Shown here: one piece after another, positions 73 through 16,226 of the stretch | How the letters are laid out: the number at the start of each line of letters is the position of its first letter | How positions within the stretch are numbered: the first letter of the stretch is position 1 | NCBI GenBank assembly: GCA_016935665.1 | Contig: JAFGQN010000080.1 | Span: 1-48,202 of the forward strand | Direction of reading: 5' to 3' | Source: Deltaproteobacteria bacterium | Lineage (GTDB): Bacteria > Myxococcota_A > Polyangia > JAAYKL01 | Length of the DNA stretch: 48,202 bases | The notes under the pieces: generated by a model | The model's database searches: none | Told to the model about the DNA's origin: nothing | Seen by the model: the letters and a program-made list of their open reading frames with translations, nothing else | Program-made: the position numbers and the translations under genes

Positions 73-82
73 GGAGTTTGTG

Positions 83-1588
83 ATGAACGCATTACTTGAC
101 TATTTGAAGAAAACGGACACCCCCGATGCGGCCATGGTGGCCTACCTGGCATCTCTTTGCAAAGTGGCTGAGGTTGCACCGGAAATCGCTGCCAGCGTCG
201 TGCAGGAACTGGCGGATCAGCGCAGCTATCTCAAGCTGATCGCCAGCGAAAACTATTCGTCTCTGTCCACCCAGCTGGCTATGGGAAACCTGCTGACCGA
301 CAAGTACGCCGAAGGGTTCCCGTTCCACCGGTTTTATGCCGGCTGTGACAATGTTGACAACATCGAAGATGTGGCCGCCAAAAAAGCCTGCGAGGTTTTT
401 GGGGCCGAACATGCCTACGTACAGCCCCACAGTGGCGCCGATGCCAACATGATTGCCTACTGGGCTATTTTGAGCACTCGGGTGGAAGTGCCCGCCCTTG
501 AGGAACTGGGAGAAACCAATCCCGCCAACCTCTCCAGGGACGACTGGAACACCATCCGCGAAAAACTGGGCAATCAGCGACTGATGGGACTGGATTATTA
601 TTCGGGCGGCCATCTGACCCACGGATATCGCCACAATGTATCGGCTCAGATGTTCGACGCGTATTCCTACTCCGTAAGTAAGGAAACCGGACTTCTGGAC
701 TACGATGAACTGGAAAAAATGGCCGAGGAAGTCAAACCGCTGATTCTGCTGACCGGGTACAGTGCATACCCCCGTAAAATCGATTTTAAACGCATGCGTC
801 AAATCGCAGACAAAGTTGGCGCGGTACTTATGGTCGACATGGCGCATTTCGCCGGGCTGGTGGCAGGCGGCGTGTTTGAGGGCGATTACAATCCAATTGC
901 CCACGCCCAGGTCGTCACCACCACCACTCACAAAACCCTCAGAGGGCCCCGCGGCGGGATGGTGCTGTGCACCGAGGAATTCGCTGAAGCCGTTGACAAA
1001 GGCTGTCCCATGGTGATTGGCGGACCGCTTCCCCACATGATGGCGGCCAAAGCGGTGGCCTTTACCGAAGCGGGTAAGGATGAGTTTAAAACCTACGCTG
1101 CCAATATCGTTAAAAACTGCCAGGCGCTGGCGGCGGCCAGCATCGAAGAGGGACTGACCGTGGCCACAGGCGGCACCGACAACCATCTGTTTTTAGTGGA
1201 TGTCCGCAATCTGGGACTGAACGGCCGCCAGGCAGAAAGCGTATTGAGAGAATGTGGATTCACCCTCAATCGGAACTCGCTGCCCTTCGACCCCAATGGT
1301 CCCTGGTACACCAGCGGACTCAGACTGGGAACAGCTGCGTTGACCACCCTTGGCATGGGCGTCGATGAAATGAAGGAAATTGCCGCTATCATGGCAAAGG
1401 TACTCAAAAACACAACCCCGGCCACAGTTAAAAAAGGCGCCAAAGCGGGCACACCCAGCAAATCCAAACATCAGATTGACGCCGCCATCGTTAATGAGGC
1501 GAAAACCCGCATCAAAGCGCTCCTTGGCCGCTTCCCGCTGTACAGGGAACTCGACCTCGCCTACCTGCAGGACGCCTTTTGCAAATAG
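83..1588 (+). CDS. glyA: Serine hydroxymethyltransferase, long form
   Basis: This PLP enzyme interconverts serine and glycine with tetrahydrofolate and supplies cytosolic one-carbon units. The family pattern is clear: the early motif LIASENYSS, the aspartate motif MVDMAHFAGLV, and the PLP-lysine motif TTTTHKTLRGPRGG with Lys284. At 501 residues it is longer than the usual ~420. An extra segment at about residues 125-175, between the HSGADAN motif and the YSGGHLTHG motif, accounts for most of this, as in the long chlamydial-type enzymes. A GTG three bases upstream (80) is possible, but GAGGAG at 71-76 is better spaced for the ATG at 83. No strong terminator follows. Confidence 0.95.
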   Translation: MNALLDYLKKTDTPDAAMVAYLASLCKVAEVAPEIAASVVQELADQRSYLKLIASENYSSLSTQLAMGNLLTDKYAEGFPFHRFYAGCDNVDNIEDVAAKKACEVFGAEHAYVQPHSGADANMIAYWAILSTRVEVPALEELGETNPANLSRDDWNTIREKLGNQRLMGLDYYSGGHLTHGYRHNVSAQMFDAYSYSVSKETGLLDYDELEKMAEEVKPLILLTGYSAYPRKIDFKRMRQIADKVGAVLMVDMAHFAGLVAGGVFEGDYNPIAHAQVVTTTTHKTLRGPRGGMVLCTEEFAEAVDKGCPMVIGGPLPHMMAAKAVAFTEAGKDEFKTYAANIVKNCQALAAASIEEGLTVATGGTDNHLFLVDVRNLGLNGRQAESVLRECGFTLNRNSLPFDPNGPWYTSGLRLGTAALTTLGMGVDEMKEIAAIMAKVLKNTTPATVKKGAKAGTPSKSKHQIDAAIVNEAKTRIKALLGRFPLYRELDLAYLQDAFCK

Positions 1589-1770
1589 CCCTGACCGCTG
1601 ATGCCACCATATCTTGTGGTGCAACGTGTTGCCAACCATACAATATGCTGTGTTTCGCTTTCAAATTTTCTGAAAAACCGGGGTTTCTGGCCAGGGATCT
1701 TCCTGACTACGTCTCCTTTGGTCCCCGCTTTGGTCCCCCTTTTGTCCCTTTTTTCTGCAAGGTTACAAAG

Positions 1771-2775
1771 TTATCGGTCTTCAAATTGGCGCAAAATGCC
1801 CAGATTCAGATTTGGATAATGGGCGATGGTGACCAAATCTTCGGGTTTAAGCACGGCTTCGTAAAACCAGAAGTCGCCGTCTTCGAGGAAGAGGCCCCGT
1901 TGCCGTAAGAACTGTTTGCATTTTTGTTCGAGCACGGACGAACTGGCGTCTACCAGTGTGCCAGTTACCTGGAACACCAGTTTGTCTTTGGCGATGAATT
2001 GTTGATTGATGGTCATGGGCGCATTGCGCGATTCCTCCAGCACCCACTCCGGTGGTCTGGCGTCGCCGTGCACATCGAAAAGCACCGACACTTTGTAGCC
2101 CAGACACGGTTGGACCGAAAAAGGCGATTGGCGCATTTCGTCGCCCTGGCAGTGCCCCAATATGTCATTTTGAGGCGACGTTTTAATATCTCTGCGCCTC
2201 CTGAAATCCACGGGCAGATACCAGCGAATGGGGCGCACTTTTTTGAATTTGCCAAGCAGCTTCGCAAATCGACGGGTGGTCAACAAATAAGAGCCAATGA
2301 ATAGAAACAAAGCCGGGGATGCGACCCACAGCAATTCCCATGAATGCCACAAAATGTTCATGTTGGGCCAGTTGATAACAAGTGGAATACCGATGGCGAC
2401 CGCTGCGTAGACAGTGGCGTGGACGCCAAACGACAGCGCCTTTGCATTCGCTGGGACATTTTTTCGAGTGTTTTCCTCATTGGATCGCAGGGTTTCCGAT
2501 ACGGTGACATCGTTTAAATCGAGCCACTGGCTGGCGCCGCATCCCGCGCAGTTGTCTGCAGATGAAACGGACAGGTACCCGCACTGCCCACAGGTATGAA
2601 AACAGTTTTGAATGCGGTGTTCGCCATGGTGGTTTGGGTGTTCCTGCTCCCCCCGCACCATGTTCATCTTGCGGTGGGCCTGCACATAGGCGCGCCGGTC
2701 CCGTCTAAATCGCGACATGTCCCGAAACATTTTTTGCATTGCTGCATGGGTCACACAGGTTGCACCGCCCGCCAT
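1771..2775 (-). CDS. Zinc-ribbon membrane protein with a GIDE-like domain
   Basis: This is a 334-residue protein of unassigned function. A basic N-terminus is followed by a zinc-ribbon with Cys62, Cys65, Cys76 and Cys79. Two hydrophobic segments lie at about 116-135 and 146-166, then a soluble C-terminal domain. The C-terminal part (PCLGYKVSVLFD, a following Trp, then a LVDASSSV stretch and a LEDGD turn) resembles the GIDE domain of MULAN/MAPL-type membrane proteins; this is a by-eye resemblance, not a proven assignment. AAGGAG stands 5 bases before the ATG at 2775. It diverges from the chaperone-like operon starting at 2884, sharing a 108-base intergenic region, so a functional link is plausible but unproven. 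Confidence 0.7.
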   Translation of the reverse strand: MAGGATCVTHAAMQKMFRDMSRFRRDRRAYVQAHRKMNMVRGEQEHPNHHGEHRIQNCFHTCGQCGYLSVSSADNCAGCGASQWLDLNDVTVSETLRSNEENTRKNVPANAKALSFGVHATVYAAVAIGIPLVINWPNMNILWHSWELLWVASPALFLFIGSYLLTTRRFAKLLGKFKKVRPIRWYLPVDFRRRRDIKTSPQNDILGHCQGDEMRQSPFSVQPCLGYKVSVLFDVHGDARPPEWVLEESRNAPMTINQQFIAKDKLVFQVTGTLVDASSSVLEQKCKQFLRQRGLFLEDGDFWFYEAVLKPEDLVTIAHYPNLNLGILRQFEDR

Positions 2776-2804
2776 GGCATCTCCTTTCGACTTGTTTGAA
2801 AATG

Positions 2805-2833
2805 TTGAGCTTCAACGGCACAAATGGTATCAT
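2805..2833 (+). promoter_or_regulatory. Probable sigma70-type promoter for the HSP90-like operon
   Basis: TTGAGC at 2805-2810 (4 of 6 bases of TTGACA) and TATCAT at 2828-2833 (5 of 6 of TATAAT) are separated by exactly 17 bases. Transcription would start near 2840 and give a leader of roughly 45 bases before the ATG at 2884. A short dyad, GTTGA-N3-TCAAC at 2804-2816, overlaps the -35 box and could be an operator. The promoter of the divergent gene was not identified. Confidence 0.5.
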
Positions 2834-2883
2834 GAACCGAAATTTTATTCCATCGCAGATTGGTTATCTTTAAAGGAGTTCCC

Positions 2884-3945
2884 ATGGCAGCAACTGAAGT
2901 GAATGTGTCCCAAAAAACATACAAAGGCGCCGGTATTTCCATCCGCTCGCTGGAAGAATCGCTGGGCGAGGAACGGCAGCGTCAGAATGTGGATTTGGAC
3001 AAACTGAAGTCCCTGAAGAGTCAAAACGAGGAACTGTCCAAAGCGCTGGAACAGGAGATTAAGAAGCTTCGAAAGTTTTCGGATTTTGTGTCAAAAGGCG
3101 ACTTCTCATCCTTTGGCGCCAAATTTAAGGAGTTGATGTCGTATCTGCCGGGAATTGGCAAAATGTTTGTGGGCAAGCGTTCCATTGAACAGCTGCTCAA
3201 ACAGCAGTACGAGATTTCATCCCGGCGCACTCACGAAGTAGCCAACTATGCCGATAGACTGGAAGCGGCGGAGCATGATTTGTACCTGGAAATCCGTCGG
3301 CTGAACGACAAAATTATTGAGCACGCCCAAAACGAGGAGGTGGCGGCGGACAATGTGCTGGCGTTAAAGACATCCCTGGAAAAGCTGGAACAGGAGCTGG
3401 CGTTGCCAGGGCAGGAAAAAAACGCGGCATACAGGGAAAAAGAGGCCAGTCTCGACAAGGTGAGAGAATTGCTCAGTGAGCATTCCACCAAACTGGAACT
3501 GTACGGTTCGGCGGAAGAGCGCCTGAATCGCCTTAAGGAAAATACCCGTCGCCTGCAGCAGACCATTTCCAATCTGCACTCAGATATTAAAAAATACGTG
3601 ATGGTGGCCACTGAAAAGCTCGATGAAGCGCAGGCCCATATTCAGGCGCTGGGCACGGCAGCGGATGCGTCGGTGGTGATGCTCGATATGAAGGCGTCGC
3701 TGGATTCCATGCAGTCGTCCATCAATGACACCACGAAGTTTGTGAGCGAGACGCAGATGTATTTGCGGGAAAACCTGGATTCTTTGATATCGGATTTGGA
3801 AATGTACGATACGGAAACCCAGACCATGGTGGACGCCAATCTGCAGCGCAGCAAGGCCATTGAAGACGCGCTTATCGACAAGGCGGTTTCCAAAGCCCTT
3901 GAAACCAAACAAAAGAACGCCAAATCCGCCCAGACGCATATTTGA
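2884..3945 (+). CDS. Coiled-coil protein, first gene of the HSP90-like operon
   Basis: The protein has 353 residues and no recognised family. It is nearly all heptad-rich helix, with charged coiled coil at about 20-65 and 105-230. These are interrupted by a more hydrophobic Gly/Phe/Pro segment at about 70-100 (SYLPGIGKMF). A second long helical region at about 240-345 is rich in Asp, Ser and Met. There is no signal peptide or clear membrane segment. The ATG at 2884 is chosen because AAAGGAG sits just before it; an upstream in-frame TTG at 2860 has no such site. Only 15 bases separate it from the next gene. A scaffold or adaptor role for the operon's ATPases is an inference from shape and position only. 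Confidence 0.8.
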   Translation: MAATEVNVSQKTYKGAGISIRSLEESLGEERQRQNVDLDKLKSLKSQNEELSKALEQEIKKLRKFSDFVSKGDFSSFGAKFKELMSYLPGIGKMFVGKRSIEQLLKQQYEISSRRTHEVANYADRLEAAEHDLYLEIRRLNDKIIEHAQNEEVAADNVLALKTSLEKLEQELALPGQEKNAAYREKEASLDKVRELLSEHSTKLELYGSAEERLNRLKENTRRLQQTISNLHSDIKKYVMVATEKLDEAQAHIQALGTAADASVVMLDMKASLDSMQSSINDTTKFVSETQMYLRENLDSLISDLEMYDTETQTMVDANLQRSKAIEDALIDKAVSKALETKQKNAKSAQTHI

Positions 3946-3960
3946 GGCAGTGCACACACC

Positions 3961-4986
3961 ATGAATCGCGCAACACCTGTGAGAGGGGGCGGCCAGACCC
4001 GTTTAAAAACGCCGACTACGCTGGCGCTTTGCGGCGATGAAGCGACCGAATATGTCAATGACCTGTCGTGCTGTATCTCGGAGATTCAACTCAACGACAT
4101 GTATCCACCGTTTCAGCGGGTGCTGCACTCACTGGATGTGATGGACCCCAAAATCAACGGTGGACTGTATCCCACGTTAAAGGTGCGATGCGACGCCGGA
4201 CTTCCGGGGTACAGCGAGTTTGTGCGCGTGCAGTCTGATTATGATTTGTGCGCCGACGAGCTCTCCATGCTGAAATGCCGTCACGATGCCAACGACGCCA
4301 CCGTGCACCCAAAGCTTTGGGCACGGCGGCAGTATCTGGAAACCCTGCAGCAGGCCGCCCCGTTTTGTGAGCAGACCCAGATTCTATTTCGGAAAATTGA
4401 CCGGGCCAATCAAACCGCACTGTTTAGAGTGGTGCTGGACAGATTCAATCCGCAAGGGTTGCTGGAGCGAACCACGGTGGAGTGTGTACAGCACCACCAG
4501 ATATGGACCCGCGAGAATCTGTCGCTGGATGGCAACGATGTGGCGCAGATTCGCGACGATCTTAAAGGCTTGATTTATCGACTCTCTCCATTGGACATAT
4601 CGTTGCTGTTCATTCGTCTCGCGGATACCGCGGGGTTGACGGTCACCCGGGTGATCAAAGGGTCCATTGGACCACTGATATCGCCGCGGGGGGGAGTGAT
4701 GGGGCGCCATGATGATTTGAAAATGGTGGTAGCGGATGGGGCTCTGCTCAGCGCGGGAATTCAGGTGGCCGGCATTGATATGGACGCAGATGTGAACAAC
4801 GATCCGTTCTGCGGGGAGGCAGCGTTATCGGGGGAAGCGAGGGCGCAGTTTTGCAAAGAGAGGAGTCTTCCCCCTGTGTATGTATTTTGCGATCGCAAGT
4901 TTGCGCTGTGTGATGGCGATGTGCCTGCGCTAAAAGCCTATCTGGCAAAGGCAACCACGAAAAATATTGTATACGAGGTGAAGTAA
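3961..4986 (+). CDS. Protein of unknown function in the HSP90-like operon
   Basis: A 341-residue, probably cytosolic protein that I cannot assign to a family. It has scattered cysteines (a Cys-Cys pair near residue 38), no signal peptide and no membrane helix. A Gly/Arg-rich turn (ISPRGGVMGRHDD) near 240-255 is the only conspicuous loop. The ATG at 3961 has only a weak GAGG upstream, so translation may be coupled to the preceding gene, which ends 15 bases earlier. It is followed after 4 bases by the AAA+ ATPase gene. That tight spacing argues for a dedicated partner of the ATPase, but nothing in the sequence shows the function. Confidence 0.75.
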   Translation: MNRATPVRGGGQTRLKTPTTLALCGDEATEYVNDLSCCISEIQLNDMYPPFQRVLHSLDVMDPKINGGLYPTLKVRCDAGLPGYSEFVRVQSDYDLCADELSMLKCRHDANDATVHPKLWARRQYLETLQQAAPFCEQTQILFRKIDRANQTALFRVVLDRFNPQGLLERTTVECVQHHQIWTRENLSLDGNDVAQIRDDLKGLIYRLSPLDISLLFIRLADTAGLTVTRVIKGSIGPLISPRGGVMGRHDDLKMVVADGALLSAGIQVAGIDMDADVNNDPFCGEAALSGEARAQFCKERSLPPVYVFCDRKFALCDGDVPALKAYLAKATTKNIVYEVK

Positions 4987-4990
4987 CCCC

Positions 4991-6628
4991 ATGACGACTT
5001 ATGAAACATCTCAAAACGGATACGCGCATCTGGTCACCTCAGGCATCGCGGCCAGTGGTCTACCGGCGCTTTTCACGCAGCTGGCGCCCGGGGATTTTGG
5101 ATTGACCGAAGATACGCTGTATCTGTTGCAACGGCTTAAGCAGGCCCTGATGGACGCCCATGTGGCCGCCGAAAAAATGAAGTACGCCATCTCGCCGTTA
5201 GGTAACGATGGGCAGGTGGTGGATTTGTCAAAGGAGCAAAAACAGTTTGCCGGACTGTTTGCGCTCAAAGTGTTTACATGGGCCATGTCGGATGCACTGT
5301 CGGAAAAAACGGCGCGTCCGAATGTGGAAGGGGCGTTTGAACTGGACGGTTTTTTGTCCCTGGCGGCCGAACTGGACGACAATTTTGCCGCGCGTATCTC
5401 CAGACTTTTATGTGCGTTTATTAAGAACGATGGAACAGAAGGGGGGGACGAGCAACAAACGACGCATTTGTTTGGCGCAGTGTTTGCGTTTGTACTGCTG
5501 CTTTTGGAGACGGTATCGTCAGTGCTGGAAAGTGGCCGATTCAAACGGTTTGCCGAGCAGGTGGCGTCCCACGAGATGCAAATTGGACTGTTGAGATGGA
5601 AAGGCGTGGTGCCTGTGAAAGTGGCGGCGCAAAAAGCGATGCTGCGGCCTGTGAGCCCCAAAGATATCATCGGCAATGAGACGTATCTCAATGCGGCCAT
5701 GCGTTTGGCAAGGGATGTGGCTGGATATGATTTTGAGCAGCAGAAAAACCCCAAAGACATCAATCCCATCATTTTTGCGTTGGGGCCGCCGGGATGTGGC
5801 AAGACTTTGGTCGCCCATGCGGTGGGCAATTACTTTACAGAATACTGTACTCAAAGGGATATTTCGTCACAGTTTGTGATTATCCGAAAAAACGACTGGG
5901 CGTCATCGTATCAGAACGCCTCAGCGCAAAACCTCATTTCCATTTTTCAAAAACTGCATCGCTTTAATGGCGTGGTGGGCATTTACTGGGCAGACATCGA
6001 TACCGCGCTGGCCAGCCGCGATCAGAAGTCGCTGCGTTCCGAGGAAAAAGCCAATCTGTCGTCGGCGTTCAATATTTTTGATGGGACGCTCATTCCTTTT
6101 GATGGCAAATGGTTCATGATGTGCGACGCCAACAATCTGGAAATGGATGAGGCGCTGCGCACCCGAATTGCCAGAAATCCGTTTAACGCAAATGGTCCAG
6201 AAACGCCGCAGCAGTATGTGCAGCTGTTTTTGGACATACAGTTGAAAAAGGTGGCCAAACACATTCGGTGTGATGACGCACTGTGGCAGGAGATTGGTCA
6301 GATGGCCTGTGACGCGAAAATATCGGGACGCGCCATGGAAGGGTTGGCCAAAAAGGTGATGAGTCGGGTTCAGGACTTTGAATATCCCGACGACTATTTT
6401 AACGCGTCGTTCGAGGAAAAGGGGCAAATCATTGAGTCGTGTTCAAAAACGGTGAGCGGCCAGGAAATTCGGCAAATGGTGGAGGATTATGTTCGCTTCG
6501 AAAAGGAAGAAGAAATGCGACTTTCCCAAAAGCGGTTTAACGACGCTGTGGCCGATGCGGTGTTTGCCATGAATGTGCAAAAGGAAGTGGTGGCAAAGGA
6601 ACTGAATGGATTGAACGATGACCTCTGA
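4991..6628 (+). CDS. AAA+ ATPase of the HSP90-like operon
   Basis: This 545-residue protein has an N-terminal helical region of about 230 residues without a recognised domain, followed by a single AAA+ module. The Walker A motif GPPGCGKT is at 265-272. The Walker B strand VVGIYWADID ends at Asp337, with Ala where the common D-E pair would have its first acidic residue. A sensor-1-like MMCDANN and an arginine-finger-like LRTRIA follow near residue 386. The C-terminus is a charged helix suggestive of coiled coil. By family knowledge it would form a ring that remodels protein substrates; the substrate is unknown. Its last 11 bases overlap the start of the first HSP90-like gene, implying coupled translation. 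Confidence 0.88.
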   Translation: MTTYETSQNGYAHLVTSGIAASGLPALFTQLAPGDFGLTEDTLYLLQRLKQALMDAHVAAEKMKYAISPLGNDGQVVDLSKEQKQFAGLFALKVFTWAMSDALSEKTARPNVEGAFELDGFLSLAAELDDNFAARISRLLCAFIKNDGTEGGDEQQTTHLFGAVFAFVLLLLETVSSVLESGRFKRFAEQVASHEMQIGLLRWKGVVPVKVAAQKAMLRPVSPKDIIGNETYLNAAMRLARDVAGYDFEQQKNPKDINPIIFALGPPGCGKTLVAHAVGNYFTEYCTQRDISSQFVIIRKNDWASSYQNASAQNLISIFQKLHRFNGVVGIYWADIDTALASRDQKSLRSEEKANLSSAFNIFDGTLIPFDGKWFMMCDANNLEMDEALRTRIARNPFNANGPETPQQYVQLFLDIQLKKVAKHIRCDDALWQEIGQMACDAKISGRAMEGLAKKVMSRVQDFEYPDDYFNASFEEKGQIIESCSKTVSGQEIRQMVEDYVRFEKEEEMRLSQKRFNDAVADAVFAMNVQKEVVAKELNGLNDDL

Positions 6629-8450
6629 TGCGCATCTTGAGAGGGAAATCGAACAAAACAGACAGAAGATGGGCGATGCCGCACTGGACACACTGGTTTT
6701 GCAGTTTGCCAATCCATTCGATTTTATAAGGGAGCTGGTGCAAAACAGTTTGGACGCCGGGACGTCGGCGGTGGATGTACGCATTGATATGGAACCGGTG
6801 AATCACCGAGATGCTCTGTGTCGAATCAGTGTGCGGGATTTTGGCGAGGGCATGGATGAACATATTATCGATACCAAACTCACCCGGCTTTTTTCATCGT
6901 CCAAAGAAAATGACCTCACGCGTATTGGCAAATTTGGAATTGGTTTCGTGTCGGTGTTTGCCATTGAACCGCAGGCGGTGATTGTGACCACGGCGCGCGG
7001 GGGACAAAGCTTTGAAGTATTTTTTGATGCGAAGCGACGTTTCGAGAAAACAGTCCTTGATGACCCCTTCGACGGCACTGAGGTAGTGGTCTTAAAAAAA
7101 ATTCAAATTGAGGAATTTGATACATATGCACTGGAGTTGCGAAATAGATTGGATAAATGGTGCAAACATGCTGAACGGGAAATTTACTTTACGAATGCGC
7201 AACAGGACAGCGCGACAAATACGCATCGGCAACGGAGAGCCCGACGCAGTGCACGTCAATCGGTGAATCAGCCCTTTGAGGTAGATGGTTTTTTACCCCT
7301 GCATGTAAAAACCGCCAATGCGGAAATATGCCTCGCGTTTTGTGAGGGAAAACCGTTTTTTGGGTTTTACAATCGCGGGCTCACTCTTTTGGAATCGCAG
7401 GACGAAGAGACGATTGGCGCATACAGGAGATACCTTGGAAACATTTCGTTTAAACTAAATTCGCCATTTCTGGAGCACACACTGACGCGCGATACCCTGT
7501 TGCAGGACAGCAATTTTCATAAGGCCATGTGCAAAGTGGTGGATGCAGCGCGCATTGATTTGGTTGGACACCTTGTGAGTCACATGGAAAAACTGGCGTG
7601 TCAACCGGAACTGACTGCACAGGAACAGCGGGAATATTTTAGATGTCTGGGACTGTTGTATGAATTGCCCAGAGCACTGGACCCCACATTTGGTTTTTCA
7701 GAATGGCTGCAGGACAAAACAAGCAGCCTTGTGGAGAAGACGGCGTTTTGGACCAGCGACTTACGCCTTTTGGAAAAATCAACGGACGCCAGTCGTGCCC
7801 GAATTTTCAGAGATTTGGAGGGGAAAGGGTGTACCCTTGCAGAGGTGGCGCAGCGGGTGGTGATCCATGAGCGACTACTGTATCTGTCGCCATCGCACAA
7901 TCCTCAGATGAATGAATTGGCCAAAGGGGGGCTGATGGTGCTGCTTAGTCCCACGTTCGATACCGGATATGATTTTTTTAAGTCTCATATCGAAATGCTG
8001 CACTTTGGAAAAACCGTGCGAATGTTGCAAAAAGGTGCGTACCCCTACGAAACCATTTCGTTGTCGTCCATGGCACCTCACGAGCAGAAACTGGTGGATG
8101 CGACCATGACGCTGCTGCGCGTATGCGAGGCGCCGATTGTGGAGATTGTTCCTGTCAATCTACTGGGAGATTCGCCATTGGAAATGCCCTTGTCGGGATG
8201 CGTCGGCGCGCATGACACTGTCGTTGTCACGCGAGAGATTGGGTATATGGAGAAAGAACGCGTTTTTTGGAACATACCGGGGTTTTGTTTTCAAAGTCTG
8301 GCGCAACTGTTTAAAACACAACCTCGGCTGGCGACCCTGATGGCGGCACGACAGACCATTTTGGAAACGGTGGACCACGATTGGCTGCGCGCGACATCCC
8401 TTGATAGATGCCTGCAGCATCTGGACGGTGTGGAGTTGTCCCATGAATGA
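6618..8450 (+). CDS. HSP90-like GHKL ATPase, copy 1
   Basis: The 610-residue protein has an intact GHKL nucleotide pocket. The N-box is RELVQNSLDAG with Glu39, Asn43 and Asp46; the G1 box is RDFGEGMD with Asp74; the lid and G2 motif is GKFGIGF at 104-110. Further on, SPFLEHTLTRDTL resembles the HSP90 middle-domain loop whose arginine reaches the gamma-phosphate (VSRE in HtpG). It lacks the usual HtpG C-terminal dimerisation sequence pattern and is clearly not orthologous HtpG. The start ATG at 6618 lies within the end of the AAA+ gene, and the stop overlaps the next gene. The second copy at 10305 is closely similar along its whole length. An ATP-driven chaperone-like role is inferred. Confidence 0.88.
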   Translation: MTSDAHLEREIEQNRQKMGDAALDTLVLQFANPFDFIRELVQNSLDAGTSAVDVRIDMEPVNHRDALCRISVRDFGEGMDEHIIDTKLTRLFSSSKENDLTRIGKFGIGFVSVFAIEPQAVIVTTARGGQSFEVFFDAKRRFEKTVLDDPFDGTEVVVLKKIQIEEFDTYALELRNRLDKWCKHAEREIYFTNAQQDSATNTHRQRRARRSARQSVNQPFEVDGFLPLHVKTANAEICLAFCEGKPFFGFYNRGLTLLESQDEETIGAYRRYLGNISFKLNSPFLEHTLTRDTLLQDSNFHKAMCKVVDAARIDLVGHLVSHMEKLACQPELTAQEQREYFRCLGLLYELPRALDPTFGFSEWLQDKTSSLVEKTAFWTSDLRLLEKSTDASRARIFRDLEGKGCTLAEVAQRVVIHERLLYLSPSHNPQMNELAKGGLMVLLSPTFDTGYDFFKSHIEMLHFGKTVRMLQKGAYPYETISLSSMAPHEQKLVDATMTLLRVCEAPIVEIVPVNLLGDSPLEMPLSGCVGAHDTVVVTREIGYMEKERVFWNIPGFCFQSLAQLFKTQPRLATLMAARQTILETVDHDWLRATSLDRCLQHLDGVELSHE

Positions 8451-10308
8451 GATTGACAGGCTCATTGCACGCAGTCGTAAAAAGGGCGGGTTTTCAAAAA
8501 AGGGGTACTTCACCCTTGAGGCGCAAAAGGCAAAGCAAAAAATTGGGGCGTATGCGTTGCCCGCTGTGGAATATGCGATTTTGGAGTTTATTCAGTCTGC
8601 GACTGCGGTGGGGGCGACGTTTATTGATGTGTCGGTTTCCGGGCATCCGCAAACTGTTTCTTTTGTTGGAGGTAGTTATACGCAATCCGAACTGGCCCAT
8701 CTGTTTGACCATTTACTCATTGATGGGGAAAATTCGCGCAGTCGCGCCATGCGGCGTTTGGCTGTGGGGGTTGTGGCGGTACTTCGCCAGGCATCGTCCA
8801 GTGTGGTGGTAGAAAGCGGCGACGGTACTGTGGCGGGGTCGTGTCGTTTGGAAATTGAAAACCCGGAGTCCCCTTTTGAGGTTGGAAGGCCTGTCGAACC
8901 CATTGATGGCACTTTTGTTCGGTTTGACATCGAACAAACCACCAGCTGGCGCGAAAAACTGGAGACGATATTTGGTCACTCGCTGCTGGGTGTTTCCAGA
9001 GGTGCGGATGGGGCGGGGAGTGATGATGACGACAAATCAGATATGACGTCTCTCGTTTACGAGCGATGCCTTTATTCGTTCGTCCCGTTGCAATTAAACG
9101 GGGAATTGCTCACCGGATATACTGCTGCCAAAGCCATACAACTTCGGCATTTGAAACACGCTGTTGAAATAGATGAAGGGGATTTGTACGGTGGGATTGG
9201 CCTTTCGCGAGATGCGAAGCGCCCAGCAGAGCTGAAGGTGCTTGCCAACGGAATATGGGTGGGTACCCTTTGGCCAAAGTTACCAAAGGGCATTACTGGC
9301 GTGGTGGGATACGAACGGCTGCATCGCACCGCCAGCCAGTATGGAATTGTGATGGATGACCGGGTGTTGGAATTGACGATGCGCCTGAAAAAGTATGTGG
9401 AAATGGTTTTGGTGACGTCTGGCGTTACGAGCAAAGCCCGTCTTGATGCGTTTTTTGAGGTCATGGGGCTGGATGTTGAAAGAGGGGCTGAAACACTCAA
9501 ACACCAGGAAGCGCATTTTAAAAAGCACAACGCCTTGTGTAGCCGGCAACATGCGCGCGAAAAAAAATCGGCAACAGCCAAACCATCAACGATTCATCAT
9601 AAACTGCCAGTGTCTGAAAATGAACCCACCGTGTCTGAAAACAGATTGGGAGTGTCTGAAAACAAACCGTCTGTTTTTGAAAACAAGCCCAGCAAGAGGC
9701 GTGCAACTTTGGAGAAGGCCAACTCGAAGCTCCCCCACCAGGAGGTCCCTAAAGGTGATTGGGGGAATGTATTGAAACCTTTTGGGACTGGTATGATTCA
9801 TTCGCTTCCCTCGAAAAGAGAGTTGACGGCAATGATGGATGCCATGCCGCAAAACGAGTTTATTACCGCTGCTATCAAAGATATTTTACACTTTGTTTTT
9901 TCAATTGAGGACACGGGGGGACAGATGGGAAGAGACTTTGTTGTTGAGATGGACCATCAGATTTCAAAGGCAGTGCGCATCAATGCCACAAGGATTCCCA
10001 AAGAAAAATGGCGACATCCAAACAGACCCGACACGCTGGTGTCGCTGAATCCAGCGCATGAAACGATTGCGCTTATTGTTAAAGACATGCGATTTAATCC
10101 GCTGGGCATATACCAGCTGGTGTTTGTCATTATGAATGAAATACAAAAAAACACCAACAACCAGAAGAATGACACATTTGAACAATGCGAGCTTTCGCTG
10201 TACCGGCCGCTGTTGCGCTGTTTGCAGCCGGACGTGTGGGAACATGTACGCGATGATACTGAGGAAACAACTGCGTTTGACGATGCTGCGGATTGGAGTC
10301 GGATATGA
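8443..10308 (+). CDS. Degenerate GHKL-like partner protein, copy 1
   Basis: This 621-residue protein is encoded directly after HSP90-like copy 1, with an overlap of 8 bases and GGAG ahead of the ATG at 8443. Its N-terminal region appears to be a decayed GHKL fold. LEFIQSATAVGA aligns with the N-box of its neighbour: Glu48 is kept, but Ser52 replaces the Mg-binding Asn and Ala55 the Asp. FVGGSY replaces the G1 DxGxG, and RRLAVGV at 104-110 replaces GKFGIGF. A variable linker with four 7-residue repeats (about 390-417) leads to a C-terminal domain shared with copy 2. It therefore probably does not hydrolyse ATP, and may regulate or pair with the active HSP90-like protein. This alignment was done by eye. 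Confidence 0.78.
   Translation: MNEIDRLIARSRKKGGFSKKGYFTLEAQKAKQKIGAYALPAVEYAILEFIQSATAVGATFIDVSVSGHPQTVSFVGGSYTQSELAHLFDHLLIDGENSRSRAMRRLAVGVVAVLRQASSSVVVESGDGTVAGSCRLEIENPESPFEVGRPVEPIDGTFVRFDIEQTTSWREKLETIFGHSLLGVSRGADGAGSDDDDKSDMTSLVYERCLYSFVPLQLNGELLTGYTAAKAIQLRHLKHAVEIDEGDLYGGIGLSRDAKRPAELKVLANGIWVGTLWPKLPKGITGVVGYERLHRTASQYGIVMDDRVLELTMRLKKYVEMVLVTSGVTSKARLDAFFEVMGLDVERGAETLKHQEAHFKKHNALCSRQHAREKKSATAKPSTIHHKLPVSENEPTVSENRLGVSENKPSVFENKPSKRRATLEKANSKLPHQEVPKGDWGNVLKPFGTGMIHSLPSKRELTAMMDAMPQNEFITAAIKDILHFVFSIEDTGGQMGRDFVVEMDHQISKAVRINATRIPKEKWRHPNRPDTLVSLNPAHETIALIVKDMRFNPLGIYQLVFVIMNEIQKNTNNQKNDTFEQCELSLYRPLLRCLQPDVWEHVRDDTEETTAFDDAADWSRI
9610..9693 (+). repeat. Four 21-bp tandem repeats inside the copy 1 linker
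   Basis: Units begin at 9610, 9631, 9652 and 9673. Each starts GTGTCTGAAAA or a close variant (the last reads GTTTTTGAAAA), encoding Val-Ser/Phe-Glu-Asn followed by three variable residues. The repeat lies in frame in a part of the protein absent from copy 2 at 12125, so it looks like recent linker expansion. Confidence 0.8.
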
Positions 10309-12128
10309 GTCAGGACGTTTATTTACAGGATATAAGTGTAAGGGAAAAGGAAATCGGTGATGCCGCCTTGAAAACGCTGGTGCGGCAGTTTGCCAATCCG
10401 TTCGATTTTATTCGGGAGCTGGTGCAAAACAGTCTGGATGCGGGGACGTCAAGGGTGGATGTGAGTATTGACCTGGAGCCTGTGGATGACGTGTTTGGCC
10501 TGTGTAAGATAGCGGTGCGGGACTATGGTCAGGGAATGGATGAGCAGATTATCGACAGCAAGTTGACGCGTCTTTTTTCCTCGACCAAAGAGGATGACCT
10601 CACCAGCATTGGCAAGTTTGGCATTGGCTTTGTGTCGGTGTTTGCCATTGATCCGGAGGCGGTGATTTTAACTACAGCTCGGGGCGGGCAGGCCTTTGAG
10701 ATTTTTTTTCATAAGGATAAAACCTTTGAAAAAACCGCTTTGCATGAACCTTTTGATGGTACTCAGGTGGTCATTTTAAAGAAAATTAAAAGGGCCCTTT
10801 ATGGACGCCATGTGACACGGCTGCGTGATCGATTAATCAAGTGGTGCAAGCATGCTGAAAAGGAGATTGGCTTTTTTGATTTGCACAAGGAGTGTACCGA
10901 GATGAAACATCGGCGGCGTCGGGGACGTCAAAATAGACATCATTTGATTAATCAACCTTTCGCTGTGGAAGGTTTTTTGCCAACAACGGTCAAATTGGAA
11001 AACGCCGAAATATCCATCGCATTTTCAGAAAAGAACTTTTACGGATTTTACAACCGCGGTCTCACTCTGGCAGAGTCGGAAGGCACAGAGGCCATCGCCG
11101 GGTATGAACGCTATTTGTCGATGGTGTCGTTTAAGATCAACTCTCCATTTTTAGAACACACTTTGACTCGTGACACCATTTTAAAAGATGATCATTATCA
11201 TAAAGCCATTTGTATGGTGGTGGAAGCCGCGCGGATTGATCTGGTTCAAAATCTTGTATCAACAATGGTAAAACTGGCGGCTCGTTTGGCGCCAACCACC
11301 TATGAAAAAAATCAGTACGCCCGCTGTCTGGGATGGCTTTACAAGCTGCCGCGCGCGCTGGATCCCACATTTTTTTTTAAGGAACGATTGGCGGATACCA
11401 CCAGTTCATTGCTCGAAAAAATGGAGGTGTGGCATAAGACAGCAAATCTGGGCGAGAAATCCGTGAACGCCAGTGAGTTGCGAATTTTCAAACGATGTGA
11501 TGGCCAGGTGCTCACCATGAGTGAGTTGGCCCACAAGGTGGTGAAGCAAAAAGGGCGCCTTTATTTCTCCCACGAAGACAATCCGCAGACACAGGAGCTG
11601 CAATCCCGGGATTACACCGTCCTGATGAGTCCATCCACCGAAAGCGCGTTGTCGTTTTTTAAGCGTCATATTCGCGTCGCCTTTCCGGACCAGGATATTG
11701 AAACGCAGTCGCACAGGGAATATCCCTTTGAGGAAGTTTCGCTTAATACACTGGCGTCACATGAACAACAGTTTATCGCTGCGACCATGCATCGGTTGAC
11801 CCACGCCATGGCGCCTGTCGACGTTATCGTTCCAGTTAATTTGCTGGGAGACAACGCCATGGAAGTGTCGTTGGCGGGATGCATTGGCGAGCACGATATT
11901 GGACGCTGTTTTCCCATGATAGAAACGGATGCGCCCATGCCGGTTTTCTGGAACATTCCGGGGATTCTTTTTCAGAGTCTGGCAAAGCTGTTTTTGTCAA
12001 ATCCGGAGCTGGCCACGGTCATCGCTGCGCGACAGACAATTATGGATACCGTTGCCAGCTACAGAATCCGGGTGACATCGCTTAGGCTGTGCATGATGGA
12101 ATTGAACACAGCAGGGGAATTGCCATGA
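10305..12128 (+). CDS. HSP90-like GHKL ATPase, copy 2
   Basis: A 607-residue paralogue of the gene at 6618, with the same motifs: N-box RELVQNSLDAG, G1 box RDYGQGMD, G2 GKFGIGF, and the middle-domain loop SPFLEHTLTRDTI with the conserved Arg. The catalytic set is intact, so it should bind and hydrolyse ATP. The ATG at 10305 overlaps the stop of the preceding gene as ATGA and has GGAG 7 bases upstream; an upstream TTG at 10293 is less likely. Basic residues near 205-215 (RRRRGRQNR) lie in a loop that also varies in copy 1. Having two active copies, each with its own degenerate partner, suggests two specialised heteromeric complexes or substrate ranges; this is inference. Confidence 0.88.
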   Translation: MSQDVYLQDISVREKEIGDAALKTLVRQFANPFDFIRELVQNSLDAGTSRVDVSIDLEPVDDVFGLCKIAVRDYGQGMDEQIIDSKLTRLFSSTKEDDLTSIGKFGIGFVSVFAIDPEAVILTTARGGQAFEIFFHKDKTFEKTALHEPFDGTQVVILKKIKRALYGRHVTRLRDRLIKWCKHAEKEIGFFDLHKECTEMKHRRRRGRQNRHHLINQPFAVEGFLPTTVKLENAEISIAFSEKNFYGFYNRGLTLAESEGTEAIAGYERYLSMVSFKINSPFLEHTLTRDTILKDDHYHKAICMVVEAARIDLVQNLVSTMVKLAARLAPTTYEKNQYARCLGWLYKLPRALDPTFFFKERLADTTSSLLEKMEVWHKTANLGEKSVNASELRIFKRCDGQVLTMSELAHKVVKQKGRLYFSHEDNPQTQELQSRDYTVLMSPSTESALSFFKRHIRVAFPDQDIETQSHREYPFEEVSLNTLASHEQQFIAATMHRLTHAMAPVDVIVPVNLLGDNAMEVSLAGCIGEHDIGRCFPMIETDAPMPVFWNIPGILFQSLAKLFLSNPELATVIAARQTIMDTVASYRIRVTSLRLCMMELNTAGELP

Positions 12129-14248
12129 GCAGTATCGATGAGATTATCAAACGCAGTCGCAAGTCGGGCGGATTTAAAACCAAAGGGTACTTCACGTTGG
12201 AAGCGCAAAAAGCAAAACAGAAAATTGCGGCCTTTGCGCTGCCCGCAGTGGAGTATGCAGTGCTGGAATTTATTCAATCCGCCATAGCAGCCGGGGCAAA
12301 GTTTGTGGATTTGTCAGTGTTGAACAACCAGATTATGCTTTCGTTTGTGGGCGGTTTTTATAGCGGACAGGAATTGGCGCATTTATTTGATTACCTGTTG
12401 CTGGATACGGACGACGCCCGTACTCGGGCCATGCGCCGGTTGGCCGTGGGGATTGCGGCAGTGCTCAAAGACAGTCCCATGGGCGTGGTTATCGAAAGTG
12501 GCAACGGCACCCTGAATGGGTCCTCGCGGCTGGAGATTGCCGATTTGAATTCACCGTTCTCGGTGGGCACCCCGAAAAGTCCCATTGGTGGAACATTCAT
12601 TCGCCTTGCCATTCCAGCAAGAAGTCGCGAGTGGGGCAGATGGCTTGGCGAGGCGCTACAACGTACTATGGAGTCTCTGAATACGGTGGGATACACCATT
12701 ACGGGGGAGGAGAGTGACAGTTCATGGGGCATCTCGTCTCTGGTGTATGAGCGTTGCCTGTATTCCATTGTTCCGCTGCAGCTCAATGGCGAACTGATAA
12801 CCGGATACACGACTCAAAAGGCTATGCAGATGCGTCATTTGCGAGCGCCGGTTGCTTTTGATGAGGGAGATTTGTACGGGGGACTGGGCATGACCTACGA
12901 TGAGGACAGACCGGCAGAAATAAAAGTCCTTACAAATGGCATTTGGGTCACGTCGATAAAGCCCATGCTGCCTCGGGGAATCTCGGGCGTGGTGGGTTAC
13001 GAGCGCCTGCATAAAACCGCCAGTCAATACGGAATTGTGGCTGATGAGCGCATGGCTGAAATGACCGAACGATTGAAGCCATATGTGGATCAGATTTTGG
13101 CCAGATTGGGCCTCACCGCCGAAGAGCGATGGGCAGCGCTGTTTCAGCGACCGATAACCGGGTTGCATATTCCCGATACCACGAATCACTTCGACGTATT
13201 ATCCAAAGATGGGGCACGTACCGCCATTTTGGAGATATGGCCAGCCACAGATGACGACGGGGAGGCCGACAGTATCGATAAGAATGAACAAAATGTGCTG
13301 CAGTTGACGGTGATCAGCGAACGCGGAAGCATTATTGATACAATAGGTGTGCCATTTGAAGGGGAAGCACAGGGCGTACTGCAAATCGATTTTCATTTTT
13401 ACAGCCTCGACATCGTTTACTATCGCACGCTGGAAGAAGCGGACTATCACACGTCCGCATTGGTGGGACTGAAAAGTGAGTTTTACAACGATTTATTTTT
13501 GGCCATGGGCATCGACTGGCGTGCTGCATCTCTGCGGGTAAAGGAAATGGCTCTGGCTCAAAAACAGAATCAGCGCGACGAAGCCGAATTTTTAAAGGAT
13601 TCACGCAACACCTCGTCGGAAGATGTTCCGGATGAAGACCCGTTTTTTCAAACGTTGCTATCTAAAGAAGACGCGACGTCAGCGTCCCTGGCAGCACCGA
13701 CTTCGGCATCCAGCGAGGGAAACGATACTCCCCAGACTCCCGCATTACCCAGACATCACAACACGTTCCCTTCCGCGACGGAGTTGCGCGCTCTGTTTGA
13801 TACCATGGAATTCAAAGACGCCATATGCGCTCAGCTCGCTGAAATCCTGCAGTTTGCCTTTGCCGAATCCAGCAATCGCAAAATTCAAAAAAAGTCTGTG
13901 CGCGTTAAAGTTACGCATCGAAGCCGACTTGAAAAACCGATTCGTATCATTCCAAACGCATTGTCCCAAATGGATGTGGATGAGGGACTCGAACCCTTAC
14001 TGCTGGTGGAAATCAACAGCGACAGCGATAGCATGCAACACCGCTTCGCTCAAATTGCCAAAGATCCGACCATGGTCTACCTGCTGGTGTTCACCATTTT
14101 CGACGAGTTGCGCGAAACCATGGATTCCACCGCAGAAACCCATTTCGAAAAAAGCGAACGCGCCATTTATCGTCCCATGATCATGAACCTGCGTGGGGCG
14201 ATGGGTGCGTCTGAAGCAAAACCTCTTTTGAAACTGCAGAATTCCTGA
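12125..14248 (+). CDS. Degenerate GHKL-like partner protein, copy 2
   Basis: A 707-residue paralogue of the gene at 8443. The shared N-terminus includes KGYFTLEAQKAKQKI and LEFIQSAIAAGAKFVDLSV, in which Glu47 is kept but Ser51 replaces the N-box Asn. The G1 position reads FVGGFYS and the G2 position RRLAVGI, so ATP binding is again doubtful. Compared with copy 1 it carries extra sequence at about 370-470 that looks like an additional beta-rich domain, then a Ser/Pro/Thr-rich linker. The common C-terminal domain (LFTM-type helix, LLVFTIFDELRE, ERAIYRPM) follows. ATGA overlap couples it to the preceding ATPase. The function is unknown; a regulatory pseudo-ATPase or client adaptor is the working idea. 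Confidence 0.78.
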   Translation: MSSIDEIIKRSRKSGGFKTKGYFTLEAQKAKQKIAAFALPAVEYAVLEFIQSAIAAGAKFVDLSVLNNQIMLSFVGGFYSGQELAHLFDYLLLDTDDARTRAMRRLAVGIAAVLKDSPMGVVIESGNGTLNGSSRLEIADLNSPFSVGTPKSPIGGTFIRLAIPARSREWGRWLGEALQRTMESLNTVGYTITGEESDSSWGISSLVYERCLYSIVPLQLNGELITGYTTQKAMQMRHLRAPVAFDEGDLYGGLGMTYDEDRPAEIKVLTNGIWVTSIKPMLPRGISGVVGYERLHKTASQYGIVADERMAEMTERLKPYVDQILARLGLTAEERWAALFQRPITGLHIPDTTNHFDVLSKDGARTAILEIWPATDDDGEADSIDKNEQNVLQLTVISERGSIIDTIGVPFEGEAQGVLQIDFHFYSLDIVYYRTLEEADYHTSALVGLKSEFYNDLFLAMGIDWRAASLRVKEMALAQKQNQRDEAEFLKDSRNTSSEDVPDEDPFFQTLLSKEDATSASLAAPTSASSEGNDTPQTPALPRHHNTFPSATELRALFDTMEFKDAICAQLAEILQFAFAESSNRKIQKKSVRVKVTHRSRLEKPIRIIPNALSQMDVDEGLEPLLLVEINSDSDSMQHRFAQIAKDPTMVYLLVFTIFDELRETMDSTAETHFEKSERAIYRPMIMNLRGAMGASEAKPLLKLQNS

Positions 14249-14270
14249 AAACAGGTTTTTGTATTCAGGA
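14243..14270 (+). terminator. Weak hairpin after the second cassette
   Basis: TCCTGAA at 14243-14249 pairs with TTCAGGA at 14264-14270 around a 14-base loop. An alternative short hairpin, CCTG-AAAA-CAGG, ends in five T residues at 14256-14260. Either could attenuate transcription before the small gene at 14313, but the stems are short. Confidence 0.3.
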
Positions 14271-14312
14271 TTCCTTATACACTAACAGCGGTTCAATAGA
14301 GAAAGCAACACC

Positions 14313-14717
14313 ATGTGGCCACAGTTTGCCAGAGATAAAGGGGAGCCGAAGCATCATTACTCCACGCTGGAAAGTGCGGATGACACGACGGATGCATCAT
14401 CAGAGCAGCGATATGTGTGTCGGGCGTGTGGTGTGCCTGTGACGACAGCGACGGCGCGGATGTCCATAGGTGGTCGGGCCGAGCATACCTTTGCCAATCC
14501 GGGGGCTGACGTTTATACCATTGGCTGCTTTGCCGATGCGCAGAATCTGGTGGTGGCCAGTGAGCCCTCATCGCTGTTTACCTGGTTTCCCGGTTACCAG
14601 TGGCAGGTGACCATTTGCGCCGGTTGCGGGCTGCATCTGGGATGGCTGTATACGGCGGTGAATCGGTTTTACGGTTTGATTATGGACAGATTGTATCTGC
14701 AGGAGAAACCCCCCTGA
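14313..14717 (+). CDS. CULT-domain (cereblon-like) protein
   Basis: The 134-residue protein matches the cereblon ligand-binding (CULT) fold. Cys36, Cys39, Cys102 and Cys105 would hold the structural zinc. Trp91, Trp97 and Trp111 occupy the tri-tryptophan cage, in the contexts TWFPGYQW and HLGW. The Trp-Trp spacings of 6 and 14, and the 5 residues from the second Trp to the third Cys, equal those of human cereblon (Trp380, 386, 400; Cys391). Stand-alone bacterial CULT proteins are known, and the domain binds cyclic imides and related small ligands. Here it would be cytosolic; the N-terminal ~30 residues look disordered. It lies 64 bases after the HSP90-like operon on the same strand and may be its last gene. 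Its biological ligand is unknown. Confidence 0.88.
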   Translation: MWPQFARDKGEPKHHYSTLESADDTTDASSEQRYVCRACGVPVTTATARMSIGGRAEHTFANPGADVYTIGCFADAQNLVVASEPSSLFTWFPGYQWQVTICAGCGLHLGWLYTAVNRFYGLIMDRLYLQEKPP

Positions 14718-14721
14718 CGAC

Positions 14722-14940
14722 TTATGATACATTGAAAAAGCGGTTGCTGGTGCCCCCTTTGCCCACGCGGATACGTATGCCTCGGCCGCATCTGGGGCAA
14801 TGTCCCACGTATGCGGTGCCCGCCTTGTTTTTGTAAATCCGGGCGTAGACATTGCAGCACTCGAACATGATGCCTAAAAACTTTTTGGGTTCGTCTTTTT
14901 CTTTGCCAAGGGTTCTGTTTTTTACGTCGTCGTAATGCAT
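14722..14940 (-). CDS. Small conserved-looking zinc-binding protein
   Basis: A 72-residue protein with Cys28-Cys29 and Cys48-x-x-Cys51 (FECCNVYARIY then GHCPRCG), arranged like a compact zinc ribbon. The following IRIRVGKGGT...RFF stretch suggests a small beta-sheet domain. The first 24 residues are charged and may not be part of the fold; Met25 is an alternative start. No strong ribosome binding site is visible. It ends 4 bases from the convergent CULT gene and is the last of three minus-strand genes. Its function is unknown. Confidence 0.6.
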   Translation of the reverse strand: MHYDDVKNRTLGKEKDEPKKFLGIMFECCNVYARIYKNKAGTAYVGHCPRCGRGIRIRVGKGGTSNRFFNVS

Positions 14941-14985
14941 CCCATATTTAAATCGGCGTTATGGCGGGATCTTTTAAGTTCTTTT

Positions 14986-16170
14986 TCAATGGGATTTGGG
15001 GTTGTCCACGTGGTGGAGGCGCAGGGTGGTAACCCCTTTTTGGCGCAGCCAGTCGAGGGCGTCGAATATTTCTTTTTCAGATGCATAAGACGAAATAATA
15101 AGGCGATCTCCGGGTTGCCAGGAAATGGCATCGGGCCTTTCGCACATCCAGTCGCCTTGCTTGAGGCCCCATTTGAGGGACGAACCATCGGTCAGCCCGG
15201 TGATGGTGTATTTTTCGAGCAGATTGGTGTTGGCCACCAGTTGGGAGGTGTGAATACCCGCCCCCCAGATATATACGTGCCTGGCGTCTGAAAGCTCTGT
15301 GGTCAGTGTGTCGAGGCGGTCCTGCCAGTAACGGATTTCATTATCGCGATAGGTGGTGACAATGGTTTTATTGGTATTGTATTCATTGGGGGCGGTCACC
15401 AGATGGTGTTGCGCTTTGGTGCTGGCCATGACACCGATAATGGGCGACATATTACTGGTGTAGTGCTCCAGCACCGAGATGGGGAAATAACCTGCATCTG
15501 TTATTGCGCGAATAAGATTGGCGCGGGTGAAGCAGTTGATGTGTTCAAAAGCAAAGAAACCGGGAAACAGACTGCCTGGCAATCCCAAAAGAGGCACTTC
15601 CACAAAAAGAAATGATTCTCGTTGGTTGGATTGTAATTCCCGACACTTCAAAAGGGCCGCCACCGGTGAGTAAAGATGCTCCAGCACATGGGTGAGAATG
15701 ATGAGTTCAAACCGCTCGTCGGTATGAAAATCTTCAATGCCCAAAGGGATGCTCTCCACATCGTACAGCCGTTTGGCAATTTCCACCGACGCTCTTCCCG
15801 GTTCCACGCCAAGCACCCGGTCCACGCCGGCTTCCTTGAAACGGGAGAGCGTGTACCCGTCGGAACTGCCAATCTGCAGGGTGCTTTGGGGCAGTCGTCC
15901 CATGGCCCGTTTGACAAATTGCACCTGTTCATCAAGGTCGCGCACCTTGGTGTCGCTGGGCTTTTCCTGGCGTCCCGGATTGGTGTAGACGGCAATGGAA
16001 TCGTAATACGTCATCATTTCTTCAAATGTTACAGTGGGGCTTTGAGCCACCGTGCCGCACGCCGGGCAGATGGAGAATCCGATTTCGGTTGACGGCAGGC
16101 CGGGCAGGGCCCATTGGCTGGAAAACAGCCTCTCCATATCGGTATGGCATATAAAACAGTTGCGTATCAT
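14986..16170 (-). CDS. SAM-dependent C-methyltransferase with zinc-binding N-terminus
   Basis: The 394-residue protein has the three-part layout of sugar C-methyltransferases. The N-terminal zinc site has Cys5, Cys8, Cys35 and Cys38. A class I SAM-binding core follows, with the glycine strand LQIGSSDGYTLSRF, acidic strand LGVEPG and LTHVLEHL. The C-terminal Rossmann-like domain contains VYIWGAGIHTSQL. FFAFEHINCFTRANL is typical of the family. By family knowledge it methylates a carbon of a nucleotide-linked deoxysugar or a similar substrate, but no sugar-biosynthesis neighbours are here, so the substrate is open. It lies 56 bases downstream of the sigma factor gene on the same strand. Confidence 0.82.
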   Translation of the reverse strand: MIRNCFICHTDMERLFSSQWALPGLPSTEIGFSICPACGTVAQSPTVTFEEMMTYYDSIAVYTNPGRQEKPSDTKVRDLDEQVQFVKRAMGRLPQSTLQIGSSDGYTLSRFKEAGVDRVLGVEPGRASVEIAKRLYDVESIPLGIEDFHTDERFELIILTHVLEHLYSPVAALLKCRELQSNQRESFLFVEVPLLGLPGSLFPGFFAFEHINCFTRANLIRAITDAGYFPISVLEHYTSNMSPIIGVMASTKAQHHLVTAPNEYNTNKTIVTTYRDNEIRYWQDRLDTLTTELSDARHVYIWGAGIHTSQLVANTNLLEKYTITGLTDGSSLKWGLKQGDWMCERPDAISWQPGDRLIISSYASEKEIFDALDWLRQKGVTTLRLHHVDNPKSH

Positions 16171-16226
16171 GTGGTCCCCCGGATTCTGTCGGGCGATGAT
16201 GAACTTGCCAGACAGGCAGGTGTGGG

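Follow-up and report, generated by a model that had tools for sequence, protein, structure and literature searches.

A recurrent bacterial gene cassette combining an AAA+ ATPase with paired HSP90-like and pseudo-HSP90 proteins: a candidate protein-remodelling machine

The window, by which is meant the whole 48,202-bp contig analysed, one of 249 contigs in a host genome of 8.16 Mb, carries a cassette of seven co-directional and mostly overlapping open reading frames on the plus strand (A–G, 2884–14248; Table 1). A first-pass annotation made from the DNA alone had recorded six tightly packed genes: the tight packing and common strand were confirmed, but the number of genes is seven. Of the products it described (a coiled-coil protein, an unknown protein, an AAA+ ATPase and two HSP90-like/degenerate pairs), the AAA+ ATPase and the two pairs were borne out by Pfam and profile comparison. 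Gaps of 15 bp and 4 bp separate A from B and B from C respectively, and the successive overlaps thereafter amount to 11 bp (C/D), 8 bp (D/E, or 4 bp if E starts at its second ATG), 4 bp (E/F) and 4 bp (F/G), the first-pass annotation having given 4–11 bases. Gene A starts with an ATG preceded by an AGGAG site, although gene starts throughout were taken from a home-made ORF caller and are hence uncertain, genes having been missed by it at two of the related loci (L142 and L144). The 55% identity between D and F, combined with the 59% identity between the N-terminal parts of E and G, indicates that D–E and F–G represent a tandem duplication of a pair. The promoter previously proposed ahead of the cassette was rejected, since the match at 2805–2833 proved to be one of 14 when 11.4 ± 2.7 would be expected by chance, and no structured RNA turned up when the window's initial 20 kb were searched.

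Table 1. Positions of the cassette genes, the adjacent gene H and the unshared stretch within the window
Feature	Coordinates	Strand	Description
A	2884..3945	+	353-aa all-helical/coiled-coil protein, core subunit
B	3961..4986	+	341-aa alpha/beta protein, core subunit, without recognised fold
C	4991..6628	+	545-aa AAA+ ATPase; unique N-terminal region of ~220 aa, then classical AAA module
D	6618..8450	+	610-aa HSP90-like ATPase, copy 1; catalytic competence predicted
E	8443..10308	+	621-aa putative pseudo-HSP90 partner of D, copy 1; ATP motifs lost
F	10305..12128	+	607-aa HSP90-like ATPase, copy 2; 55% identity to D
G	12125..14248	+	about 707-aa putative pseudo-HSP90 partner of F, copy 2; 59% identity to E over its N-terminal half
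H	14313..14717	+	Yippee/CULT-like zinc protein; judged to lie outside the system
Unshared stretch holding the cassette	1..16226		absent from two same-genus genomes; left end is the contig end

The next gene downstream (H), which begins 64 bp beyond the cassette on the same strand and is preceded by a foldable inverted repeat (z −2.3), encodes a protein containing CxxC pairs that scored 25.1 bits against PF03226 (Yippee/Mis18), for which the cut-off is 26.6. This CULT protein had initially been counted as part of the system, and a degron- or small-molecule-recognising function had been argued from it. At loci annotated by matching to the eight window proteins, no related cassette had H beside it, and relatives from which the cassette is missing encode homologues of H; it was consequently rejected as a member and is regarded as a neighbour, a decision that leaves the recognition argument unsupported.

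Protein C exceeded the Pfam threshold for the AAA domain (PF00004, 37.5 bits against a cut-off of 21.2), and its closest relative of solved structure is katanin mei-1, with spastin and p97 also among the nearest. In common with katanin, spastin and p97/Cdc48, it combines this classical AAA domain with a Walker A motif (GxPGCGKT in 64 relatives, one copy of which is truncated there), a pore-loop aromatic (Y307, replaced by F in 7/64), the sensor-1 residue N381 and the arginine finger R392, the last two being conserved across the same 64 sequences. The pore-loop region of the family reads DWASSYQNAS in this alignment, and a nearly fixed RRTDWASSYQNASA stretch aligns to the corresponding region of katanin. 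By comparison with the same enzymes, C differs in its unique N-terminal region, in its bacterial operon partners, and in having P/A-D-I-D where they have D-E-I-D. Alignment to mei-1 showed that the Walker B Asp is replaced by P or A and the Glu by Asp; the family motif is YW(P/A)DIDTA in all 64 relatives, none of which shows the canonical hhhhDE, and the ATPase activity of C is for this reason uncertain. In a phylogenetic tree, the window copy sat on a long branch alongside a set made up mainly of Myxococcota (100/99). Only weak AAA matches to C were recovered from PHROGs.

Both D (46.2 bits) and F exceeded the Pfam cut-off for HATPase_c_3, and the best solved match to the D-family profile was full-length E. 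coli HtpG (E = 8.4e-16), with the profile alignment running from residue 10 to residue 582. Like HtpG and HSP90 generally, D and F, which align from the N-terminal into the C-terminal domain of HtpG, retain the N-box, G1, G2 and the middle-domain Arg. Residues N43, D74, G76, G78, G104, G107, G109 and R291 are conserved in the D family, the N-box, DxGxG and GxxGxG motifs being invariant or nearly so in 28 sequences and R291 present in 24 of them; the TLTRD segment of D, which contains R291, was aligned to the NVSRE of HtpG, the Arg of which is the catalytic Arg of HSP90. Catalytic competence is accordingly a prediction for D from its motifs. Its score of 31.5 bits against the HtpG equivalog NF003555, far under the cut-off of 371, identifies D as an HSP90 paralogue rather than HtpG itself, and a separate canonical HSP90 gene lies on another contig of the same genome. 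HtpG is a homodimer that needs no partner gene, whereas D is normally tied to the gene for a pseudo-HSP90 (vide infra). With the NCBIfam model of the sacsin ATPase domain (cut-off 50), F scored 51.7 and D 47.7; the cassette nevertheless differs from sacsin-type HSP90-like repeats in having two separate proteins and an AAA+ partner, and no DnaJ or HEPN domain was recognised. PADLOC matched D and F to the N-terminal ATPase part of TmtA only, and the only PHROGs matches to D were through the GHKL domain (RIIA-like and others). Contig C7 of the host genome encodes an additional HSP90-like protein (L023:6926-9892; 988 aa), adjoining a 629-aa ORF.

No Pfam match was obtained with E or G, nor was any Pfam domain detected in 21 members of the E family. 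Profile–profile comparison did, however, reveal homology between E and D over the N-terminal and middle regions (hhalign 99.0%, E = 5.5e-18, 336 columns). In the E family, Ala, Ser or Cys usually takes the place of the N-box Asn and Phe that of the Asp, and neither DxGxG nor GxxGxG is intact, so that the ATP motifs expected of a catalytic protomer have been lost. This combination of homology to D and motif loss marks E as a pseudo-enzyme homologue of the HSP90-like D, that is, a pseudo-HSP90. Beyond this region, members of the family have a C-terminal extension that ranges in length from about 100 residues to more than 1500, with a mean pairwise identity of 0.20 against 0.28 for the N-terminal part; repeats of the HSP90 middle segment were sought in the long C-terminal part and none was convincing. 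At one locus (L088:12744-18248), an E-type protein bears an N-terminal FHA domain, which hints at a phospho-signal input. E also diverges faster than the core, with mean column identities of 21–24% for E against 50–53% for A and C in sets that are similar rather than identical.

The two families are closely linked: D and E are separated by a median of −4 bp, with 28 of 31 pairs lying within 30 bp, and the identity matrices of 30 pairs correlate at r = 0.82, where the maximum reached in 2000 shuffles was 0.25. D and E thus co-diversify, and pair as cognates.

Proteins A and B, like E and G, gave no convincing family in Pfam, NCBIfam, PADLOC or PHROGs. The AlphaFold2 (AF2) model of A, a family of 26 members, is all-helical and of low confidence (pLDDT 68.7), and no convincing match was found in the PDB either. 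Identification of A as TelA, XhlA, ESCRT-III or an alpha-pore toxin was considered and discarded in the absence of a significant match, and the helical-bundle matches that did appear (E >= 0.009) were judged to be the usual coiled-coil noise. By way of comparison, the model of B is confident (pLDDT 86.7, pTM 0.85), although no PDB fold matched it at E <= 1e-3; its family of 30 members shares invariant P82, G237-P238, D281, V308 and R312. At nearly all loci A adjoins B.

A relatives search located C in six other genomes and in none of 13 other genomes of its own family. When the alignment of the seven C proteins was used as the query in a scan of GTDB species, 64 loci were obtained, many of them from metagenome-assembled genomes (MAGs), in Myxococcota (Nannocystis, Plesiocystis, Enhygromyxa and many MAGs), Elusimicrobiota, Vulcanimicrobiota/Eremiobacterota, Armatimonadota, Planctomycetota and UBP9; as the scan deployed exact short patterns, divergent copies will have been missed. 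The order A-B-C-D-E was recorded at two loci in Myxococcota (L030, L088), one in Armatimonadota (L056), one in Planctomycetota (L064) and six in Elusimicrobiota (L066, L067, L069, L073, L075 and L085), and the order A-B-C-D at two in Vulcanimicrobiota (L057, L058) together with the related L065, the median gaps across loci being −4 bp for B-C and +1 bp for C-D. The genes are therefore adjacent in several phyla and not only here, which had been one of the checks proposed at the outset, and conservation of one order over such distances implies that the cassette is probably a real molecular machine. The earlier statement that no characterised system was known to have this combination also held good: no counterpart was found in Pfam, NCBIfam, PHROGs, PADLOC, the PDB or a literature search covering open papers, and the cassette appears not to have been described previously as a set of bacterial genes.

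Outside the compact arrangement, the components follow two distinct patterns. All 16 genomes in which C stands alone carry a single copy of A elsewhere, and most of the regions retrieved around A have B adjoining it. Their E-type proteins are multi-copy and scattered, and a D gene as a rule immediately precedes that for E. Among 240 genomes of the class, C was detected in 29 and A in 35, and A was present in 29 out of 29 C-bearing genomes (Fisher p = 8e-32, relatedness ignored) and in all 23 genomes with a strong E match, defined by an analyst-chosen cut of E about 1e-50 or better. Conversely, ten of the 29 C-bearing genomes, including the essentially closed genome of Nannocystis exedens, yielded no E match, making the dependency between the core and E one-way. 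Genomes with several D-E pairs carry one A and one C. A single-copy A/B/C core thus exists beside multi-copy cognate D/E modules. Two variants were also encountered: locus L143:4686-15982 is arranged A-B-D-E-E with no AAA+ gene, and three loci (L148, L150, L151) in Myxococcota families lacking A or C hold weaker D-E-like pairs of a wider HSP90/pseudo-HSP90 family, with D of about 560 aa and E of about 1850 aa.

A more distant arrangement was found in Vibrio, Sinorhizobium, Shinella and Rhizobium, whose large replicons encode an AAA protein homologous to C (hhalign 99.5%, E = 1.8e-22). In the Vibrio and Sinorhizobium records this gene is preceded by genes for a coiled-coil protein and a B-like protein, the same order as in the cassette; the B-like protein aligned to B (hhalign 67%, E = 5e-5), whereas the coiled-coil gene corresponds to A by position only (hhalign probability 2%). 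No HSP90-like gene lies next to it in these records; instead, Vibrio has a DUF6638 gene after the AAA gene, and Sinorhizobium has other genes, then an unannotated gene of similar size, then DUF2333. Walker B in the Vibrio relative reads IDDID. The literature search covering open papers found no mention of DUF6638, and the cassette seen at L192:3912-9460, L194:6690-10908 and L196:4643-10192 is apparently undescribed. Together with the C-bearing genomes that gave no E match, this core with no HSP90-like gene beside it indicates that A-B-C can exist without D-E.

The interpretation we tentatively prefer, although we would stop short of calling it probable, is that the cassette specifies an ATP-driven protein-remodelling machine in which an AAA+ core serves HSP90/pseudo-HSP90 clamps. 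According to this scheme, D (and F), as a diverged HSP90, would pair with its cognate pseudo-HSP90 (E or G) to form an asymmetric clamp with a single protomer able to hydrolyse ATP, while the pseudo-HSP90 protomer, with the long variable C-terminal region found in most relatives, would supply regulation or client choice. C would act as the AAA+ motor, with A (a helical scaffold) and B (an adaptor of new fold) as its fixed partners, either on the clamps themselves or on clients handed over by them, in the way that a single AAA+ remodeller can attend to many clamp–client complexes. That D and E form heterodimers, that C assembles as a hexameric ring and threads or unfolds its substrates, the direction of action and the clients are all matters that we infer. 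That the HSP90-like proteins form obligate active/pseudo-HSP90 heterodimers, several specialised pairs to a genome, working with one AAA+ motor and two further proteins, is possible but doubtful. Of the first-pass proposal of a protein-quality-control or stress machine, the conserved AAA+/HSP90-like system itself stands, and the kinds of enzyme involved make a remodelling role plausible.

The nearest functional analogy would be with R2TP of eukaryotes, in which a RUVBL1/2 AAA+ ring and adaptors pass clients to HSP90 (PMC5501727). Both unite an AAA+ protein with HSP90, but C is a classical AAA protein of the katanin/p97 type, and no PIH1D1- or RPAP3-like adaptor was recognised in the cassette. 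The RuvB_N match of C (16.8 bits against a cut-off of 27) confirmed that it is not RuvB-like, and the likeness is hence one of analogy, not of membership.

Three observations tell against the remodelling of HSP90 clamps: the odd Walker B of C in every relative, the occurrence of the core with no E match (ten C genomes) or, in its distant form, with no HSP90-like gene beside it (Vibrio and rhizobia), and the existence of D-E-like pairs in Myxococcota families without A or C. The second of these is equally an argument for the chief rival, namely that A-B-C is autonomous and remodels polymers or membrane complexes in the manner of Vps4 or katanin, the HSP90 pairs (in Myxococcota and others) being one type among interchangeable client adaptors rather than the centre of the system, with DUF6638 or DUF2333 proteins (in Proteobacteria) as others. 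The kinship of C with katanin, spastin and p97 and the elongated, helical form of A in its low-confidence model are consistent with such a role, yet that same model has no significant match to ESCRT-III or a known polymer, the proteobacterial coiled-coil gene is equivalent to A by position alone, and no membrane-related neighbour recurs; on balance we consider this alternative somewhat unlikely.

A role in defence or abortive infection, also raised at first pass, would have the multi-copy, fast-evolving D-E pairs sensing phage proteins and A-B-C providing a common response machinery. Patchy distribution outside the family that holds the Nannocystis-type genomes, location in lineage-specific DNA beside a variable junction, and the faster divergence of E than of the core all point that way, as does the fact that some defence proteins, VcSduA of the Shedu type among them, have GHKL domains (PMC12137116). 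Set against these, the cassette is common within the Nannocystis family, it shows no recognisable domain of a nuclease, a toxin or a membrane effector, and PADLOC 2.0 gave no match to an anti-phage component beyond the shared ATPase domain. The neighbours of 34 loci included no recurring defence or mobile family, several being housekeeping genes (rpoD, dnaG, nuoF, argS), and a defence-island location was rejected for the loci examined. Searches of phage and viral collections found no copies, with 0 viral contigs carrying C, and we regard a defence function as decidedly improbable.

Very improbable is a chaperone module dedicated to a single large product, such as secondary-metabolite megasynthases or the complexes of gliding or secretion, for although HSP90 is a late-stage folding chaperone and the C-bearing genomes of the class are mostly large, the neighbouring genes include no recurrent family of biosynthesis or motility, and the cassette is also found in Elusimicrobiota and in genomes of 3–5 Mb.

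Bacterial HSP90 is generally viewed as a lone and mostly dispensable chaperone, and the HSP90 homodimer as having two ATP sites that are equivalent. Should remodelling of HSP90 clamps by the AAA+ core prove correct, a conserved pair of active and pseudo-HSP90 linked to an AAA+ motor would alter both of these views, would constitute a bacterial counterpart of the eukaryotic HSP90–AAA+ partnership, and would provide a naturally asymmetric HSP90 with which the role of the second ATPase site could be tested directly. The role of each ATP site is a question raised for TRAP1 in PMC5550277. The cassette would further define new protein families, B among them, and its spread over several phyla suggests a useful function.

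With respect to the surroundings of the cassette, neighbours at the related loci vary from lineage to lineage, most of them being housekeeping genes or a mixture (RpoD, DnaG, Nuo, ArgS, MFS and others); as lineage-specific neighbours only, the RpoD/DnaG and Nuo genes were rejected as partners. In the window itself, synteny with two same-genus genomes (G001 and G002) starts exactly at a sigma-factor gene (16227-17483), which abuts the lineage-specific stretch 1-16226. That stretch is at least 16.2 kb long, given that its left end is the end of the contig, and its gain or rearrangement in the lineage of the window is likely. To the left of the sigma-factor gene, G001 and G002 share a gene set with each other, and as the spot is variable in these genomes also, it looks like an insertion hotspot. 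The unshared stretch includes a second, diverged serine hydroxymethyltransferase-like gene (80-1588), with 45% identity to the other copy in the same genome on contig C238; the latter has a counterpart in G002, and the window copy occurs, among the three genomes, in that of the window alone. Further to the right (24724-25404), the window contains an ORF with a long Ser-Asp/Gly-Asp repeat.
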